Origin: an uncultured Bacilli bacterium
GTDB lineage: Bacteria; Bacillota_I; Bacilli_A; RF39; UBA660
Assembly: GCA_947631515.1 (NCBI GenBank)
Contig: CANRLP010000004.1
Coordinates: forward strand, 1 to 36,990
Length of the DNA stretch: 36,990 bases
Reading direction: 5' to 3'
This document shows, piece after piece, positions 21,149-35,169 of the stretch; positions within the stretch are counted from its first letter, which is position 1, and every line of letters begins with the position of its first letter. Below the pieces are notes generated by a model. That model made no database searches, was not told the DNA's origin, and worked only from the letters and a program-made list of their open reading frames with translations. The translations under genes were made by a program, and so were the position numbers.

Positions 21149-21164
21149 AAATACACCTCAAAAT

Positions 21165-21343
21165 AAAAACCCAAAGGAAAGTCTGCTTTGGATAAAAACC
21201 CGCTCACGCGAGGTGGGCATCACATGAACTGTTTTAGGATCCTAGCAACACTTAATGGGCTAGTATTCTACACCACAATCCAATTAGATTCCCAAGAATA
21301 TCCATAGTCGGTTTTATATAAAAACAAACTATATCCTTCAGGC
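21165..21343 (-). ncRNA. ssrS: probable 6S RNA (ssrS/bsrA-like) upstream of tcdA
   Basis: ~180-nt noncoding transcript unit: - strand TATAAT at 21350-21355 (TTGTAT 18 bp upstream), structured GC-richer sequence, GNRA-like hairpin (ccucgcGUGAgcgggu), GGAUA/UAUCC closing pairing, terminator CCAAAG..CTTTGG + T tract at 21161-21191; tcdA-adjacent location matches B. subtilis bsrA. Confidence 0.7.
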
Positions 21344-21390
21344 ATTATTATTATACCACATAAATAATTATTTATACAAGCTGATTATAA

Positions 21391-25856: not shown

Positions 25857-25905
25857 AAAGATAAATAAAAATTTACCTTTTTTAGACAATTTTTTATTTA
25901 TCTAA
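25857..25905 (-). terminator. Rho-independent terminator at end of the hisS-gatB operon
   Basis: - strand agataaataaaaaattgtctaaaaaaggtaaatttttatttatctttttattttt hairpin + T-rich tail. Confidence 0.7.
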
Positions 25906-27324
25906 TTCCTTTTTTAATATTTCTTTGGTTAACACTGGATTAGCTTTACCTCGAGTTTCTTTCATAACTTGACCTACAAAATAATCAAATAAGTTATCTT
26001 TACCATTTTTGTATTGTTCTACTTGAGTTTCATTTTGACTTAAAATAGTAGTAATGATTTTAGTTAGTTCTTCTTGATTAGAAATTTGAGCCATATCGCT
26101 ATTTATAAATGATTTAGGTTCCTTTTTTGCTTCTACGGCTTTATAAAAAATTTCTTTAGCTTGTTTAGATGAAATTGTTCCGGCATTTATTTCATCAATA
26201 ATTTGTTTTAAAAGAACTGGAGTTAAATAAAAATCTTTTAAAGATATTTCTTCGTGATTAATTTCTCCAAGAATTTGCGTAGTTAACCAATTACTAGCAG
26301 TTTTAGCATCTATTCCTAAATTAAGACATTCTTCAAAGTAAAGAGCATATTCTTTTTCTTTAACAATAACTCCCGCATCATATTCGCTTAGATTATAATC
26401 TTTCATATATTTATCTTTACGTTCTAGAGCAAGAAGCGGAATGTTTTTCCGAATTTCTTCTAACCAAGATTTTTCAATTTTAAATTTCGGAATATTAGGA
26501 TCAACAAAGTATTTATAGTCGATAGCATCTACTTTGCTGCGCATTCTAATAGTTGTCCCTGATTCTTCATCAAAACGTCTAGTTTCTTGTTCAACTTCAT
26601 CATATCTTCCTTGACTCTTTAACTCGCTTTGTCTTTTTATTTCATAATTAATAGCATCATAAACATTACCGAAGGAGTTAATATTTTTAACTTCTACTCT
26701 AGTTCCAAATTCTTTAGCATCCATGTCCATGATGGAAACGTTAACATCGCATCTTATTTGCCCTTTTTTCGTATCAGCTTCCGAAACATCACAGTATTTA
26801 TAAGCACTACGCATATGTTCAAGGAATGCTACCGCTTCTTCGGCACTAGAAAGACAAGGTTCAGTAACAAGTTCCAAAAGTGGTACTCCGGCGCGATTAT
26901 AGTCAATACAAGATGTATCAAAGTAGTGGTCTAGGCTAGCTGCATCTTCTTCTAAATGGATATCGTGAATTAAAACTGGCATGCGTTTACCATTCACTTC
27001 TATTTCAATATGGCCATCAACTCCTACGGGAGAAGCCATTTGGGTAATTTGGTATCCTTTAGGCAAATCTGGATAATAATAATTCTTCCGATCAAAATAC
27101 ATATATTCTGGTTGCTTACAATTTAAAACCATACTCATCATTAAGGCATCTTGCACACATTTTTTATTAACAACAGGAAGAGTTCCTGGGAAAGCCATAT
27201 CTACGGGACGAACATTATCATTAGGTATTTCATTATAAGAATTTCGAGCACTAGAAAAAACTTTAGAATTACTTTTTAATTCACAATGCATTTCTAGTCC
27301 AATAACTGCTCTATATTTACCCAT
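25894..27324 (-). CDS. gatB: Asp-tRNA(Asn)/Glu-tRNA(Gln) amidotransferase subunit B
   Basis: GLEMHCELKSNSKVFS, YYPDLPKGYQITQ, DYNRAGVPLLELVTEP. Confidence 0.97.
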   Translation of the reverse strand: MGKYRAVIGLEMHCELKSNSKVFSSARNSYNEIPNDNVRPVDMAFPGTLPVVNKKCVQDALMMSMVLNCKQPEYMYFDRKNYYYPDLPKGYQITQMASPVGVDGHIEIEVNGKRMPVLIHDIHLEEDAASLDHYFDTSCIDYNRAGVPLLELVTEPCLSSAEEAVAFLEHMRSAYKYCDVSEADTKKGQIRCDVNVSIMDMDAKEFGTRVEVKNINSFGNVYDAINYEIKRQSELKSQGRYDEVEQETRRFDEESGTTIRMRSKVDAIDYKYFVDPNIPKFKIEKSWLEEIRKNIPLLALERKDKYMKDYNLSEYDAGVIVKEKEYALYFEECLNLGIDAKTASNWLTTQILGEINHEEISLKDFYLTPVLLKQIIDEINAGTISSKQAKEIFYKAVEAKKEPKSFINSDMAQISNQEELTKIITTILSQNETQVEQYKNGKDNLFDYFVGQVMKETRGKANPVLTKEILKKELDK

Positions 27325-28781
27325 TATTTCACTTCCTTTGCAATTTGGTTTTTAAAGTTCATTTGAGATTCAATAGCATAAGCGATATTTAAAACATTCG
27401 CATCATCGTAAACATTACCTGTAATATTTAAAGCAACTGGTAAATCATTTATAAAGCCATCAGGAATTGTAATAGAAGGAAATCCTCCAAAATTACCAAT
27501 TTGCATATGTTCTTCTAAGACAGCAGTATCTTTAGTTAGAATATCTTTGGAACCATCTAAGTGTTTGGCAGGCCCACTACCAACCGGTAAAATTACGGCA
27601 TCATAAGTTTCATATAATTTTTTCCAAGTATCAACTAATAAACGTCTAACTCTTTGAGCATTTTTAAAATATCTCTCTTGATTTTCTTTTTGTAAGATAT
27701 AAGAACCAATTACAAAACGTCTTTTAATTAAAGGAGAAAATCCATGAGTCCGATGGTCCATCATAACTTCATTGATATTAGCACCACTTCCCCGTGGTCC
27801 AAAAATAATTCCCGTTAAATTTGACATATTGCTAGTAGCTTCAGCACAAGAAATAGCTACATAAACACTTGGTTCCGCATCTAAAAGCTTTTTATCAACG
27901 CTTACTTCTTCGACAACTATACCTAACTTTTTAATATTTTCTAAAACATTCATGAAGTTTTCTAAATGTAATTTTAATTCTTCGGTAGGATTTTCATAAT
28001 TTTTAATGTCACAAATTTCTTTGATATAACATACTTTTTTGCCCTTTACATCACCATTTAAAGACTCTAACAAATGAATATTACTAGAATCCCAACTAGT
28101 CATATCATTTTTATCGATTCCTTTCATTGCATCGACAACAATGGCAGCATCCCGAACGTTTCTCGAAAATACTCCACAATGATCTAGACTAGAAGCAAAA
28201 GGAAATAAGCCATAACGAGAAATTATGCCATAAGTTGGTTTATAGCCGACGATTCCACAATAAGCTGCCGGTTTTCTAATAGAGTCCCCCGTATCACTTC
28301 CTAAAGCATAAGGATAGACACCACTAGCTACCGCACAAGCACTACCAGCACTTGATCCGGCACAACTTCGTGATAAATCCCAAGGATTTTTGACAGCACC
28401 GGTGTGTCCAGTTGTTCCTGTACCACCCATACCAAATTCATCCATAACAGTTTTATTAACAGGAATGGCTCCGGCTTTATACAAATTTTCCACTGCCGTC
28501 GCATTAAAGAATGGAACATAATCTTTTAGCGTGTTAGAAGAACCCGTCGATAATATATCTTTCGTCGAATAATTATCTTTAATACCAAAAGGAATACCAG
28601 ATAATAAATTATCAGTAACATCGCCTGGTTTCGCATCATCTAAAATAGTTACGAAAGCATTACATTTTTCTTGAACTTCATGAGTTTTTTCTAATGCTTC
28701 TTTAACTAAATCTTCACTAGTTACTTGACCATTTATTAAATCTTCATGTAACTCTTCAATGGATTTATGCATATAATTCAT
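27324..28781 (-). CDS. gatA: Asp-tRNA(Asn)/Glu-tRNA(Gln) amidotransferase subunit A
   Basis: Amidase signature (GSSAGSACAVASGVYPYALGSDTGDSIRKPAAYCG..GYKPTYG). Confidence 0.97.
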   Translation of the reverse strand: MNYMHKSIEELHEDLINGQVTSEDLVKEALEKTHEVQEKCNAFVTILDDAKPGDVTDNLLSGIPFGIKDNYSTKDILSTGSSNTLKDYVPFFNATAVENLYKAGAIPVNKTVMDEFGMGGTGTTGHTGAVKNPWDLSRSCAGSSAGSACAVASGVYPYALGSDTGDSIRKPAAYCGIVGYKPTYGIISRYGLFPFASSLDHCGVFSRNVRDAAIVVDAMKGIDKNDMTSWDSSNIHLLESLNGDVKGKKVCYIKEICDIKNYENPTEELKLHLENFMNVLENIKKLGIVVEEVSVDKKLLDAEPSVYVAISCAEATSNMSNLTGIIFGPRGSGANINEVMMDHRTHGFSPLIKRRFVIGSYILQKENQERYFKNAQRVRRLLVDTWKKLYETYDAVILPVGSGPAKHLDGSKDILTKDTAVLEEHMQIGNFGGFPSITIPDGFINDLPVALNITGNVYDDANVLNIAYAIESQMNFKNQIAKEVK

Positions 28782-29074
28782 TCTCCCACCACCTTCGGTA
28801 CTTCAATTTCTCTTCCTTCTGTTTGATCTGAATTTCTAAGTAAATCTTCAATAGGAATAGATTCTTCGGCGATATCTTCTCGTAAAGTACAATAAAAATC
28901 ATCTAAACAGTGCGTCATTGGTTCAACATTTTCTAAACCATCTATTTCCAGTTTTCCTAAATTTTCATCAATAATAGCAAATTCATCTAATACCATTTGG
29001 TTTTCTTCTTCGGTTAATCCAATCAATAATTTTTCAGCTAGACTATCTACTAATTCTTTTGTAAAATTATTCAT
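28778..29074 (-). CDS. gatC: Asp-tRNA(Asn)/Glu-tRNA(Gln) amidotransferase subunit C
   Basis: LTEEENQMVLDEF..ENVEPMTHCLD..LREDI; start MNNFTKEL at 29074; stop TGA overlaps gatA start. Confidence 0.9.
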   Translation of the reverse strand: MNNFTKELVDSLAEKLLIGLTEEENQMVLDEFAIIDENLGKLEIDGLENVEPMTHCLDDFYCTLREDIAEESIPIEDLLRNSDQTEGREIEVPKVVGE

Positions 29075-30830
29075 CTTCTTCCTCCTTAATAACTGCAATA
29101 CCTAATTCTTTTAATTGGGCATCACTAACACTAGTTGGAGCTTCACTCATTAAGTCACTAGCACTTTGAGTTTTAGGGAATGCTATAACGTCTTTTATAT
29201 CATTAGTTCCTGTTAAAACCATTACTAATCTTTCTATACCTGGAGCAATACCAGCATGAGGAGGAACACCATATTTGAAGGCTTCTAAGATAAAACCAAA
29301 ACGCAATTTGGCATCTTCATCACTAATACTTAAAGCTTTAAAAATTCGTGCTAAATCTTGAGTTTTATGATTTCTTACGCCCCCACTTGCTAATTCATAA
29401 CCATTTACCACTAAATCGTAACTTCTAGAAATACAATGTTCGGGATCATCAATAGTATTGATATCCTTTACCATAGTGAAAGGATTATGTTCAGCTTTCC
29501 ATCTTCCTTCGGTCTCAGAATATTCAAAGAATGGGAAATCAGTAATCCATAAGAAATTTAATTTTTCTTCATCAATTAAATGTAATTCCCGAGCAATTTT
29601 ATTACGTAAAGCTCCTAAAGAAGCATAAACAATTTTTTTCGTATCAGCCACAATCAAAATCAAATCGTTATTGGTAATCCCAAATTTTTCTTTCATTGCT
29701 GCAAGTTTCTCATCTTCTAAATTTTTAGCAATAACACCATTAAATTTATCATCATCATATTTTAACCAAGCTAATCCTTTAGCACCATATATTTTAACAA
29801 AATCTGTTAAATGTTCGACGTCACTTCTAGAATATTTATCACCATTATTTTTAACAATTAAACATTTAACAATTCCACCCTTTTCGATAGCACTACGAAA
29901 AACATTCATATTAGTATCTTTTAAAATATCTGTTAAATCTAAAAGTTCCATTTCAAAACGAGTATCTGGTTTATCACTACCAAAACGATCCATAGCTTCT
30001 TGATAGGTAATTCGAGGGAAATCTGGTAAATCAATATTTTTAACATCTTTAACGATTTTTTTGATCATACCTTCCGTTACATTCCATACATCTTCTTCTT
30101 CGGCGAAACTCATTTCTAAATCAATTTGGGTAAATTCCGGTTGACGGTCACTTCGTAAATCTTCATCCCGGAAACTTCTAGCAATTTGATAATAGCGTTC
30201 AAAACCCGATACCATCAAAAGTTGTTTAAATATTTGCGGACTTTGAGGTAAAGCATAAAAAGAACCTTTATTAATCCGAGATGGAACTAAATAATCTCTT
30301 GCTCCTTCGGGGGTTGATTTACATAGAATTGGGGTCTCAATTTCCACAAAACCTAAATTATTTAAATATTCCCTGGCACTTTTACATACTTGATGACGGA
30401 TTAAAATATTATTTTTTAACTTTTCGCGGCGTAAATCTAAATAACGATATTTTAAAGCCACATTTTCGTTTACTTCTGCATCATTATCATAGACATTAAA
30501 TGGTAAAACATCGCATTCACTTAAAATTTCTAGATCTTCAACCATTAATTCGACTTCCCCGGTAGGAATTTTTGGATTAATCATATCAGGAGTACGAGCA
30601 ATTAGTTTACCAGTTGCCTTAATACAATATTCATTTTTTAAACTTTCAGCTAAACTAAAATCATTTTTTAAATAACTACGATTAAAAACAACTTGTAAAA
30701 AACCAGAGCGATCGCGCAAGTCGACGAATATAACTCCACCCATATCACGACGTTTATTGACCCAACCATATACGGTATACTCTTTATCTATATCTTTCTT
30801 TCTAAATTCTCCATTATTATATTGTTTCAT
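29067..30830 (-). CDS. aspS: aspartyl-tRNA synthetase
   Basis: VYGWVNKRRDMGGVIFVDLRDRSG, FRDEDLRSDRQPEFTQIDLEMSF, GIAPGIERLVMVL; start MKQYNNG at 30830. Confidence 0.97.
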   Translation of the reverse strand: MKQYNNGEFRKKDIDKEYTVYGWVNKRRDMGGVIFVDLRDRSGFLQVVFNRSYLKNDFSLAESLKNEYCIKATGKLIARTPDMINPKIPTGEVELMVEDLEILSECDVLPFNVYDNDAEVNENVALKYRYLDLRREKLKNNILIRHQVCKSAREYLNNLGFVEIETPILCKSTPEGARDYLVPSRINKGSFYALPQSPQIFKQLLMVSGFERYYQIARSFRDEDLRSDRQPEFTQIDLEMSFAEEEDVWNVTEGMIKKIVKDVKNIDLPDFPRITYQEAMDRFGSDKPDTRFEMELLDLTDILKDTNMNVFRSAIEKGGIVKCLIVKNNGDKYSRSDVEHLTDFVKIYGAKGLAWLKYDDDKFNGVIAKNLEDEKLAAMKEKFGITNNDLILIVADTKKIVYASLGALRNKIARELHLIDEEKLNFLWITDFPFFEYSETEGRWKAEHNPFTMVKDINTIDDPEHCISRSYDLVVNGYELASGGVRNHKTQDLARIFKALSISDEDAKLRFGFILEAFKYGVPPHAGIAPGIERLVMVLTGTNDIKDVIAFPKTQSASDLMSEAPTSVSDAQLKELGIAVIKEEEDE

Positions 30831-31629
30831 TTTCTTCTTCCTTTCTAATAATCTCATTAATTTTTTTTATTTGTTCTTCACTAAAATTGTCTTTTAGATA
30901 ATCATATCCACGGACAAGTTCTTGAAAAAATTTTAAATCGTGAGTTTCTCCAACTTTTTCAATTAATCTATCTTTGTCTAAGAATTCATCGGCAACGCTA
31001 ATTAGTTCCGTTAAATAATATGCATCTCTTTTTTCAATGAAATAATCCTCAATTAAAGACAAATCTTTATTATGTCCATTATAGTTGGCTGCTAATCGCC
31101 ACAAAGCTTCTCTTTTATCTTCTTTAATAGCAACATTTACTAAATCATTAAAGTCTTCTTGACTAATCATCGGAGGCATAGGAACTCTTATATATTGGGT
31201 AATAAAATTTAGTAATTCCTCATCATCCATCTTACGACAATAATTTATATACGTTTCACTATTCGTTAATAAAGAAAATATATTTTCGTATCGTTTACCG
31301 CAATCTCTTATCACTTTCTTATCTTCTAATAAACTATCATAACGTTCTTGTAAAAATTTTTGTTCCTTTTCATCTAATTTGTTATTTTTTAAAGTTTTTT
31401 CGATATCAGCAATAATCTTTTCAAGGTTAGCCATTCTTTTCTTTTCATAATCATCTATTTCATTAGGAACTGAAGCGATGATTTCTTTTAAATTTTTTAT
31501 TAACTCGTCAATTTCTTTATTTTCCGTATCAGTAAAAGTTTTATGCTCCATATTATTTAATAGTTCTAACAATTTTTCACTATTAATAAAACGATTTATA
31601 TAACGATAAACAATATTTACTAAATCCAT
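30817..31629 (-). CDS. hypothetical protein in aaRS operon
   Basis: SD gaggaggtttcaaATG supports start 31629; charged alpha-helical protein; overlaps aspS start. Confidence 0.75.
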   Translation of the reverse strand: MDLVNIVYRYINRFINSEKLLELLNNMEHKTFTDTENKEIDELIKNLKEIIASVPNEIDDYEKKRMANLEKIIADIEKTLKNNKLDEKEQKFLQERYDSLLEDKKVIRDCGKRYENIFSLLTNSETYINYCRKMDDEELLNFITQYIRVPMPPMISQEDFNDLVNVAIKEDKREALWRLAANYNGHNKDLSLIEDYFIEKRDAYYLTELISVADEFLDKDRLIEKVGETHDLKFFQELVRGYDYLKDNFSEEQIKKINEIIRKEEENETI

Positions 31630-31658
31630 TTGAAACCTCCTCAAATATCGTATTTATC

Positions 31659-32258
31659 TTATTTAAGATTTCTTCCAAAATTAATTTTTTTCTTCCGATT
31701 CAAAATATAACATTCTCCACAAACGGCTTTATAAGTTATTTCGTCTTGGGATCCGTCAATTAAAACTTGATCACCTTCGAATGTTGGAATATTATTTACA
31801 AATCGCATATTTTGGGTTGCTTTTTTACCACATTCACAAATGGTCTTAATTTCTTCAATCGTATCAGCAATTTGTAAAAGTCTATCAGAACCAGGAAAAG
31901 CATTCATGCGAAAATCACAACGTAAGCCATAACAAAGAACGGGAATACTAAATTCTTTCGTTAAAATATAGAAATCATCCACTTGTTCAGGAGTTAAGAA
32001 TTGCGCCTCATCTACTATAATGGCACTTAATCCATCAAAAGGAATTTTTTTAAAAACTTTATCATTAGGGTTTAAAACAACATCTACTGTCCTTTCTACT
32101 CCTAATCTACTAACGACTTTATCATTTCCTTTAGTATCTATCGCCGGTTTTACAAGGGCTACTTTCATACCTCGTTCTTCGTAATTATAAGCAACTTGCT
32201 GTAAAATAGTTGTTTTACCACAATTCATTGCTCCATAACGAAAATATAACTTTGCCAT
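31659..32258 (-). CDS. tdk: thymidine kinase (type II)
   Basis: YGAMNCGKTT P-loop, IVDEAQFL, GLRCDFRMNAFPGSDRLL, zinc ligands CECG..CGEC; start probably M4 (32258). Confidence 0.95.
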   Translation of the reverse strand: MAKLYFRYGAMNCGKTTILQQVAYNYEERGMKVALVKPAIDTKGNDKVVSRLGVERTVDVVLNPNDKVFKKIPFDGLSAIIVDEAQFLTPEQVDDFYILTKEFSIPVLCYGLRCDFRMNAFPGSDRLLQIADTIEEIKTICECGKKATQNMRFVNNIPTFEGDQVLIDGSQDEITYKAVCGECYILNRKKKINFGRNLK

Positions 32259-32271
32259 AACACTCATCTAC

Positions 32272-33636
32272 CTAAAAATCACAGTTTCCTGATGTTCTTG
32301 GGTATGGAATAACATCTCTTATATTATCGACCCCTGTTAAGTATATTAACAATCTTTCAAAGCCCATACCAAAACCAGAATGCGGACAAGTTCCATATTT
32401 TCTTAAATTTAAATACCATTCCATATCTTTAGTTTCCATTTGCATTTCTTGCATACGCTTCACAAGTTTATCGTAATCTTCTTCTCTTTGACTACCACCC
32501 ATTAATTCGCCAGCTCCTGGTACTTCTAAATCGACTGCAGCAACCGTTTCATTGTCAGGATTTAATTTCATATAAAAAGCTTTGATATCTTTCGGCCAAT
32601 TTTTAATAAATACGGGGCCATCAAAATATTCTGTTAAATACTTTTCATGTTCTTTGGCAATATCGCAACCATATTGAGGCTCAAATTCCCATTTAACATT
32701 AGCATCTTTCAAAATAGTGATTGCTTCTTCGTGACTAATGCGGGCAAATTGGCTTGTTACTAATTTTTGGAGTTTAGTAATAATTCCTTTTTCAACAAAC
32801 TCATCAAAAAATTTCATTTCATCCGGACATTTTTCTAAAACAGAAGAAACAACATATTTTAACATATCTTCCATAACTTGCATGTCACCTTCCAAATCAC
32901 AGAAAGCCATTTCCGGTTCTATCATCCAAAATTCGGCGGCATGAGTTTTGGTATTAGAATTTTCAGCTCTAAATGTTGGTCCAAAAGTATAGGTCTTTTT
33001 ATAAGCAGTAGCAAAAGTTTCCGCTTCTAATTGACCACTTACTGTTAAATTAGTCATTTTGCCAAAAAAGTCTTTACTATAATCTATTTCTTTTTGGCCA
33101 CTATTTAAAGGAAGAGTTGTTACTTGAAACATTTCTCCGGCTCCTTCACAATCACTAGAAGTTAAAAGAGGAGCATGAAAATATATAAACCCATGATTTT
33201 GAAAATATTCATGAATAGCAAAAGCTGCAACGCTTCTAACCCGGAATACTGCTTGAAAAAGATTTGTACGAGGGCGAAGATAAGCTACACTTCTTAAAAA
33301 CTCTCTTGTGTGATGTTTCGGTTGAATTGGGTAATCATCCGAACAAGTTCCGACAATTTCGATTTTTTTGGCTTGAACTTCTACTTCTTGATTACCTTTA
33401 GATTCAACTAATTTTCCTTCAATATGTAAGGCACTTCCTACTAGAACTTTACTAATTTCTTCAAAATTATCTAAGTTTGTATCATAAATAATTTGTAAAT
33501 GTTTAAAACAAGTTCCATCACTAAAATCAATAAAGCCAAATTCTTTTTGACGGCGATGATTACGTACCCAACCATCTAAAATTACTTCTTGATTTAAGTT
33601 TTTTTGAGTATTTGCAAATAAATCTTTTAAATCCAT
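32272..33636 (-). CDS. asnS: asparaginyl-tRNA synthetase
   Basis: VILDGWVRNHRRQKEFGFIDFSDG, FRAENSNTKTHAAEFWMIEPEMAF, GFGMGFERLLIYLTG. Confidence 0.97.
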   Translation of the reverse strand: MDLKDLFANTQKNLNQEVILDGWVRNHRRQKEFGFIDFSDGTCFKHLQIIYDTNLDNFEEISKVLVGSALHIEGKLVESKGNQEVEVQAKKIEIVGTCSDDYPIQPKHHTREFLRSVAYLRPRTNLFQAVFRVRSVAAFAIHEYFQNHGFIYFHAPLLTSSDCEGAGEMFQVTTLPLNSGQKEIDYSKDFFGKMTNLTVSGQLEAETFATAYKKTYTFGPTFRAENSNTKTHAAEFWMIEPEMAFCDLEGDMQVMEDMLKYVVSSVLEKCPDEMKFFDEFVEKGIITKLQKLVTSQFARISHEEAITILKDANVKWEFEPQYGCDIAKEHEKYLTEYFDGPVFIKNWPKDIKAFYMKLNPDNETVAAVDLEVPGAGELMGGSQREEDYDKLVKRMQEMQMETKDMEWYLNLRKYGTCPHSGFGMGFERLLIYLTGVDNIRDVIPYPRTSGNCDF

Positions 33637-33644
33637 ATTATCAC

Positions 33645-34901
33645 CTAACCATTAGAAACAATATAATCAATGATTTCATTTTCATCAATTTTTGTTTCTT
33701 CCTTTGTTTTATTATCTTTAACAGTTATTAAACCTTTATTCAAATCATCGCTATTTAAAATTATTAATAATTCGGCATTATTCCGATCAGCTTCTTTGAA
33801 TTGACTTTTTAGAGAACGTCCTGTTGTGTCATAATCAACTGATAAACCAGAAATACGTAAATCTTGAGCTAAAGTAATAGCTTTCATTTTTTCTTCTTCA
33901 TTGACATACAAAATATAGCAATTTAATGGCCGTTTTTCACTAAAATAATCATCTTCCATAGCCAGCATTACTCTCTCTAGCCCACTAGCAAATCCCATAC
34001 AAGGAATGCTTGGTCCTCCTAAAGACTCTACTAAATCATTATATCTACCACCGGCAGCAATCGTTGATGCTCCTCCTAAAATTTCTTTATCACAAACAAT
34101 TTCAAAAACGGTATAGTCATAATAATCTAAACCTCTTACTAATTTTTCATCTACTTCATAATCAACATCTAAAAAAGTTAAATACTCTAAAACTTTTTGA
34201 AAACGTTTTTTGGATTCTTCACTTTGATAGTCTAATATACTTGGAGCATTTTTTAATATTTCACTATCATGATCAACTTTACAATCTAATATACGTAAAG
34301 GATTGGTATTAAAACGATTTTGACAATCACTACAAAGTTCATGAATGTGAGGTTTCAAATAATTTACTAACTCATTACGATAACTTGCTCGATCTTCTTT
34401 AGCTCCTAAATTATTTATTTTAACTGTTAAATCTTTAAAACCTAATTCTTCAAATAAACGATATGGCATTGATATGACTTCAGCATCAGTAGCAGGATCA
34501 TTACTACCAAGGATTTCTAACCCAAATTGCGTAAATTCACGATTTCTTCCATTTCCAGGACGTTCATAGCGATACATTGTCCCATTATAAAAAAATTTTT
34601 TAGGTAAATTTTCGCCATACATTTTATTTTCAATGAATGAACGAACTACTCCTGCTGTGCCTTCGGGACGAAGTGTCAATTCCCGTTCACTACGATCTTT
34701 AAAATCATACGTTTCTTTGGTTACTATATCAGAAGTATCTCCAACAGTTCGATGAAATAATTCTTGCGACTCAAAGATAGGAGTTCTAATATAATCATAA
34801 TTATAAAAATCACAGAAATAATCAATTAAACGATTTATTTTTTGCAATTTTACTGCATCTTTTCCTACAACATCATAAGTTCCTTTAGGTTTCATTATCA
34901 T
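33645..34901 (-). CDS. hisS: histidyl-tRNA synthetase
   Basis: KPKGTYDV, LRPEGTAGVVRSFIE, MYRYERPGNGRNREFTQFGLE, GLDYYDYTVFE. Confidence 0.97.
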   Translation of the reverse strand: MIMKPKGTYDVVGKDAVKLQKINRLIDYFCDFYNYDYIRTPIFESQELFHRTVGDTSDIVTKETYDFKDRSERELTLRPEGTAGVVRSFIENKMYGENLPKKFFYNGTMYRYERPGNGRNREFTQFGLEILGSNDPATDAEVISMPYRLFEELGFKDLTVKINNLGAKEDRASYRNELVNYLKPHIHELCSDCQNRFNTNPLRILDCKVDHDSEILKNAPSILDYQSEESKKRFQKVLEYLTFLDVDYEVDEKLVRGLDYYDYTVFEIVCDKEILGGASTIAAGGRYNDLVESLGGPSIPCMGFASGLERVMLAMEDDYFSEKRPLNCYILYVNEEEKMKAITLAQDLRISGLSVDYDTTGRSLKSQFKEADRNNAELLIILNSDDLNKGLITVKDNKTKEETKIDENEIIDYIVSNG

Positions 34902-34917: not shown

Positions 34918-35135
34918 TGATAATAAAAAAACCTAATAAATGTAAGGACGAACTCAAAGTCCGCGGTGCCACCTTACTTTACTAGGTACTCTCTAAAAAT
35001 TTATCGCATTTTTGCGTTCTATGTTACAAAAAGTTGTCTTTCTATTTAATTTCTTTTCGGCATTTCCATCAGACTAGCCTTCTCTGGTAAAAGAATTATT
35101 AAATATACTCTTCTTTTTCATAGAAATAACATATA
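34918..35135 (-). promoter_or_regulatory. T-box riboswitch leader upstream of hisS-asnS-tdk-orf-aspS-gatCAB
   Basis: T-box GGTGGCACCGCGG (34961-34973, - strand); Stem I UAUUUAAU-AA-UUCUUUU/AAAAGAA-AUUAAAUA; specifier loop AGUA/GAA; terminator cctagtaaagtaagg..ccttacatttattaggttttttt. Confidence 0.93.
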
Positions 35136-35140
35136 TTTGT

Positions 35141-35169
35141 ATTTTAGTACTTTTCATATTTGAAGTCAA
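35141..35169 (-). promoter_or_regulatory. promoter of the T-box/hisS operon
   Basis: - strand TTGACT (35164-35169) - 17 bp - TAAAAT (35141-35146). Confidence 0.7.

Follow-up and report, generated by a model that had tools for sequence, protein, structure and literature searches.

The window, the whole 36,990-nucleotide stretch that was analysed, carries on its minus strand eight genes that are spaced by a few bases or overlap: hisS (33645–34901; TIGR00442, 454 bits), asnS (32272–33636; PRK03932, 632 bits), the thymidine kinase gene tdk (31659–32267; NF003300, 230 bits), orfX (30817–31644; 275 aa, no NCBIfam match), a bacterial-type aspS (29067–30857; TIGR00459, 741 bits), gatC (28778–29098; TIGR00135, 42.7 bits, just under the cut-off of 47.1), gatA (27324–28781; TIGR00132, 423 bits, under the cut-off of 481) and gatB (25894–27324; NF004012, 572 bits). 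These profile matches agree with the hisS-asnS-tdk-aspS-gatCAB operon proposed in an earlier sequence-only reading. A crude scan gave no convincing internal terminator on the coding strand of the operon, and the eight genes are presumably co-transcribed. Homologues of orfX were found between tdk and aspS at the same operon place in locus L040, and in L051–L053 without tdk. In the genome from which the window derives (980 kb in 99 contigs, assembly approximately 90% complete), no glnS match reached the cut-off and two partial, low-scoring matches were obtained; as asnS is present, GatCAB here probably makes Gln-tRNA-Gln.

A T-box leader extends ahead of hisS from Stem I to the antiterminator (34941–35130, minus strand). 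In a 421-base search RF00230 covered it over its full length (model positions 1–219; 77.1 bits, E 4e-17), so the match is not due to chance and the leader is a genuine transcriptional T-box, as had been proposed for this operon. The score lies below the RF00230 gathering score of 93, which is a curation threshold and not a structural feature, and a default Rfam scan of the window consequently missed the leader and listed 6S RNA only (RF00013, 59.9 bits; 21164–21347, minus strand). The genome contains nine T-boxes, of which the hisS leader is the eighth by score and two others likewise score under the threshold. A promoter-like site, TTGACT-17-TAAAAT (35141–35169, minus strand), was found by consensus scan with 10 of 12 matches; such sites are no commoner in the region than expected by chance, and this one is well positioned.

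The leader shares with class I (transcriptional) T-boxes of RF00230 a Stem I with loop-E specifier bulge, AG-rich bulge and distal loop, the UGGN bulge and the terminator/antiterminator arrangement. Stem I (35017–35125) is closed by a base helix that is kept in relatives (UUCUAUG, 35125–35119, with CAUAGAA, 35023–35017), followed by a lower stem (AAAAAG, 35118–35113, with CUUUUU, 35033–35028) and an upper stem (UAUUUAAU, 35105–35098, with AUUAAAUA, 35050–35043). Sequence and automatic parse place the specifier loop between the two stems, with AAGAGUA (35106–35112) as 5' strand and GAAAGACAA (35034–35042) as 3' strand; the latter consists of GAA (35042–35040), A35039, GAC (35038–35036), A35035 and A35034, and C35033 is already paired. 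The earlier hand-folded Stem I was thus correct, and GACAAC was indeed present at 35038–35033. Support for this structure comes from the covariance model and from relatives; the minimum-energy fold of Stem I alone from the single AU-rich leader sequence did not recover the model stem. Stem I is followed by a short CGC/GCG hairpin, probably Stem IIA/B (35005–35016). Most Stem II columns are empty in the RF00230 alignment of the leader; Stem II proper is missing, in which it differs from the RF00230 class, and this absence suggests itself as the reason for the low score. The conserved T-box GGUGGNACCGCG is present as GGTGGCACCGCGG at 34973–34961, with the bulge UGGC at 34968–34971, complementary to tRNA ends reading GCCA (G73). 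The intrinsic terminator ACCUAGUAAAGUAAGG ... CCUUACAUUUAUUAGGU with its U run occupies 34925–34987, and its arms (34987–34972 and 34947–34931, then the U run) compete with the antiterminator.

The specifier was located by comparison with the other T-boxes of the same genome that lie ahead of recognisable genes, these genes being identified by eye from open reading frames. In ileS (GAA-A-AUC-A), metG (GAA-G-AUG-G), pheS (GAA-U-UUC-A) and tyrS (GAA-AA-UAC-A), the codon sits one or two bases past the loop-E GAA, and a purine comes after it. By this placement rule the hisS leader reads GAC (Asp), one base past GAA within the AGUA/GAA loop and with A as the next base, as proposed previously. The AAC triplet that had been put forward as a second, overlapping register (35035–35033) is present; it adjoins GAC without overlap, starting three bases after it, is followed by U instead of a purine and is not wholly in the loop, its C opening the lower stem by pairing with G35113. 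In the genome, tRNA-Asp (anticodon GUC), tRNA-Asn (GUU) and tRNA-Gln carry G73, and tRNA-His carries C73. The UGGC bulge therefore argues against tRNA-His and cannot tell Asp from Asn, so that the codon must decide.

For conservation analysis, hisS loci were collected from 80 contigs of genome collections and the window's family, and specifiers were read by a stem-pairing parse with manual reading of about ten leaders, a first regular-expression parse having picked Stem II sites. The set held 86 distinct T-box leaders before hisS (64 GAC, 1 GAU, 17 AAC and 4 ultrashort), to which a later search added more. On the HisS protein tree the window falls into a supported clade of 14 leaders, in which GAC and the following A are invariant (0 changes). 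Within this clade the supposed AAC varies: its second base (A, G or C) has changed at least five times and its third once, giving AAC in seven leaders, AAU in one, AGC in two and ACC in four; the nearest relative, L040, has GACAGC, with 87% identity in hisS and the same operon, tdk and orfX included. Of 88 leaders parsed by structure, 86 have an A immediately 3' of the codon. The pair that closes the stem, from which the would-be second codon takes its third base, is G-C or A-U in 86 of the 88, its two partners changing together; because the parser is biased towards pairing the first position, this alternation weighs more than the percentage. The covarying pair explains the apparent AAC or AAU, as well as the apparent His codon of relatives that read GACAC or GACAU.

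Taken together, the leader is most probably a transcription-terminating T-box with the single Asp specifier GAC that senses uncharged tRNA-Asp, and the AAC triplet is judged incidental, being made up of two bases of a free A-rich linker and the C that closes the lower stem. The presence of aspS within the operon and the match of tRNA-Asp G73 to UGGC speak for aspartate; hisS instead of aspS as first gene and the score under the gathering threshold speak against this explanation. The loop also has one extra base 3' of the codon relative to the simplest leaders (a gap of two, not one), which leaves space for slippage and counts against a single-codon reading. In the proposed mechanism, uncharged tRNA-Asp would pair through its GUC anticodon with GAC in the Stem I loop and through its GCCA end with UGGC in the antiterminator bulge. 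Binding would stabilize the antiterminator and block the terminator (34987–34925), and hisS-asnS-tdk-orfX-aspS-gatCAB would be transcribed as aspartate charging drops; the level of aspartate charging would thus stand in for the whole gene cluster.

In about 80 leaders of the family the canonical codon itself is either GAC or AAC, and it has switched at least nine times on the hisS tree; L059 (GAAAGACAGC) and L055 (GAAAAACAAC) are examples inside a single clade. In all loci whose operon could be followed far enough, AAC was seen only ahead of asnS and/or gatCAB: it occurred in the leaders of 16 operons that contain asnS or gatCAB and of none of the 17 hisS-AspRS operons scored as GAC or AAC (at least 6 kb seen). 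The Fisher test gave p = 0.007, although the tree holds only two changes of operon type and a comparison of independent pairs was not significant; since operon types are clustered on the tree, the association of AAC with asnS/gatCAB operons is only suggestive. Several hisS operons (L054, L011, L044, L110 and others) contain as second gene a 430-residue archaeal-type aspartate--tRNA(Asn) ligase (PRK05159), beside or replacing the bacterial AspRS and often alongside asnS and gatCAB. One reading of the at least nine Asp/Asn flips is that they occur because the two tRNAs share G73 and the codons lie one base apart, and that GACAAC leaders with the one-base longer loop, such as the window's, serve in some species as two-tRNA intermediates; we consider this doubtful.

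The dual Asp/Asn sensing that the sequence-only reading had called plausible for the window itself would require a three-base slip of the loop, such that tRNA-Asp reads GAC and tRNA-Asn reads AAC and both amino acids are coupled to the operon. Both codons are there, UGGC suits the G73 of tRNA-Asn as well as that of tRNA-Asp, asnS and aspS are both in the operon, and AAC or AAU is kept in 8 of the 14 clade leaders. The remaining six, the nearest relative included, have AGC or ACC, and in the comparison of orthologous leaders, which had been set beforehand as the refuting test, a single codon was conserved and the second was not. Two-codon sensing does have a published precedent, which the earlier reading had invoked: according to the review PMC4052509 (citing Saad 2013), a T-box over the Clostridium acetobutylicum transamidation operon, like the present one over gatCAB with an Asn codon near a second codon, senses through overlapping Asn and Glu codons. 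The geometry of that case, as given there, is different, since the window's GAC and AAC are adjacent, not overlapping, the last C is helical (C35033-G35113) instead of lying in an open loop, and of the two codons only GAC is conserved. An AA followed by C is, moreover, what an A-rich linker ahead of a C-G pair would be expected to give. With the second codon unconserved, its C paired and U next to it, dual sensing by the window's leader is improbable.

Two-codon sensing would rather be sought in the GAAC leaders, in which Glu GAA and Asn AAC overlap in the specifier loop; these make up 8 of the 17 AAC leaders and belong to distant relatives (L012, L057, L064, L065, L067, L068, L073 and L137). 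In the hisS leader of L259 (minus strand) the loop reads UUGACAACA before the lower stem, with Asp and Asn codons unpaired and a purine after AAC, which makes this leader a better dual-codon candidate than the window.

Sensing of tRNA-His through an overlapping CAC or CAU was also considered, both for the GACA-Y leaders found in relatives and, by extension, for the window's operon. In favour of this, hisS is the first gene, and GACAC, GACAU or GAUAC is present in all 18 long-Stem-I leaders of hisS-AspRS operons that were seen over 6 kb or more. In the relatives, however, Y belongs to the closing stem pair, G occurring with C and A with U, and UGGC mismatches C73, although the TBDB database exempts His from such a test; the idea is very improbable. 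For the window, which reads GACAA and, as noted earlier, has no CAC or CAU in the specifier loop, tRNA-His sensing was ruled out by this absence together with C73. Equally improbable is a decayed, non-regulatory relic, to which the sub-threshold score and the missing Stem II might point, as T-box motif, terminator, promoter-like site and specifier are all intact and conserved in the clade.

Seven hisS leaders lacked the upper Stem I altogether (L016:813–1039, L019, L115:9792–10018, L125:752–978, L223, L230 and L231). In these a loop of 8–11 nt with UGAC sits directly on the base helix and a short stem, as in L125 (GUAAG-AGUGACAG-CUUAC), so that the Asp codon GAC lies in an apical hairpin loop (mostly RGUGAC); Stem II proper is absent and an intrinsic terminator is present. 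RF00230 scores were 29–37 bits in the three listed. On the HisS tree this form involves no fewer than three changes, although two of the branches are long, and the base helix shows a compensating pair within one genus (UUCUAUG/CAUAGAA in L016, UUCUGUG/CACAGAA in L223). The same architecture was seen in the tyrS leaders L302, L303 and L304 with a UGGU bulge, the loop of L303 and L304 holding UAC (Tyr) in GAGAA-AUUUACAAC-UUCUC. Among 23 Gly-type loci with a UGGA bulge, mostly ahead of glyS, 20 were ultrashort, with GGA or GGC in the loop (L309–L331 except L318, L323 and L329; T-box at about 1500 in most loci); these leaders have a K-turn-like GAUGA, a covarying stem of 3–4 bp, the loop UGGA/UGGC and the UGGA bulge, and L318 and L329 are long-Stem-I homologues. 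The glyS of the window's own genome is cut by a contig end. In the Gly stems 77 of 88 cells were paired, as against 28–46 when slid, with the stems picked for pairing and two long-Stem-I loci included in the count; the variety of pair types (G-C, U-A, A-U) is better evidence for the stem than the count.

Those of the ultrashort leaders that were read individually end in a hairpin followed by a U run. Specifiers in apical loops belong to short Stem I T-boxes, which are mostly translational, and transcriptional T-boxes are reviewed as generally requiring a long Stem I in contact with the tRNA elbow (PMC7583486). The leaders found here resemble the ultrashort Stem I T-boxes of Actinobacteria in the apical position of the specifier; the actinobacterial forms are translational (PMC7583486), whereas the present leaders have intrinsic terminators and specify Asp, Tyr or Gly. 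No description of transcriptional ultrashort Stem I T-boxes was found, the key primary literature lying outside the search. Ultrashort transcriptional forms for Asp (hisS), Tyr (tyrS) and Gly (mostly glyS) are possibly newer than the main result, and they bear on the view that transcriptional T-boxes need a long Stem I (PMC7583486).

The leader of the window is thus an ordinary T-box, most likely with one aspartate codon, which settles the tempting dual-sensor reading. As G73 is common to tRNA-Asp and tRNA-Asn, a single point mutation can retarget a multi-synthetase operon between aspartate and asparagine, and the case shows how T-box specificity evolves.
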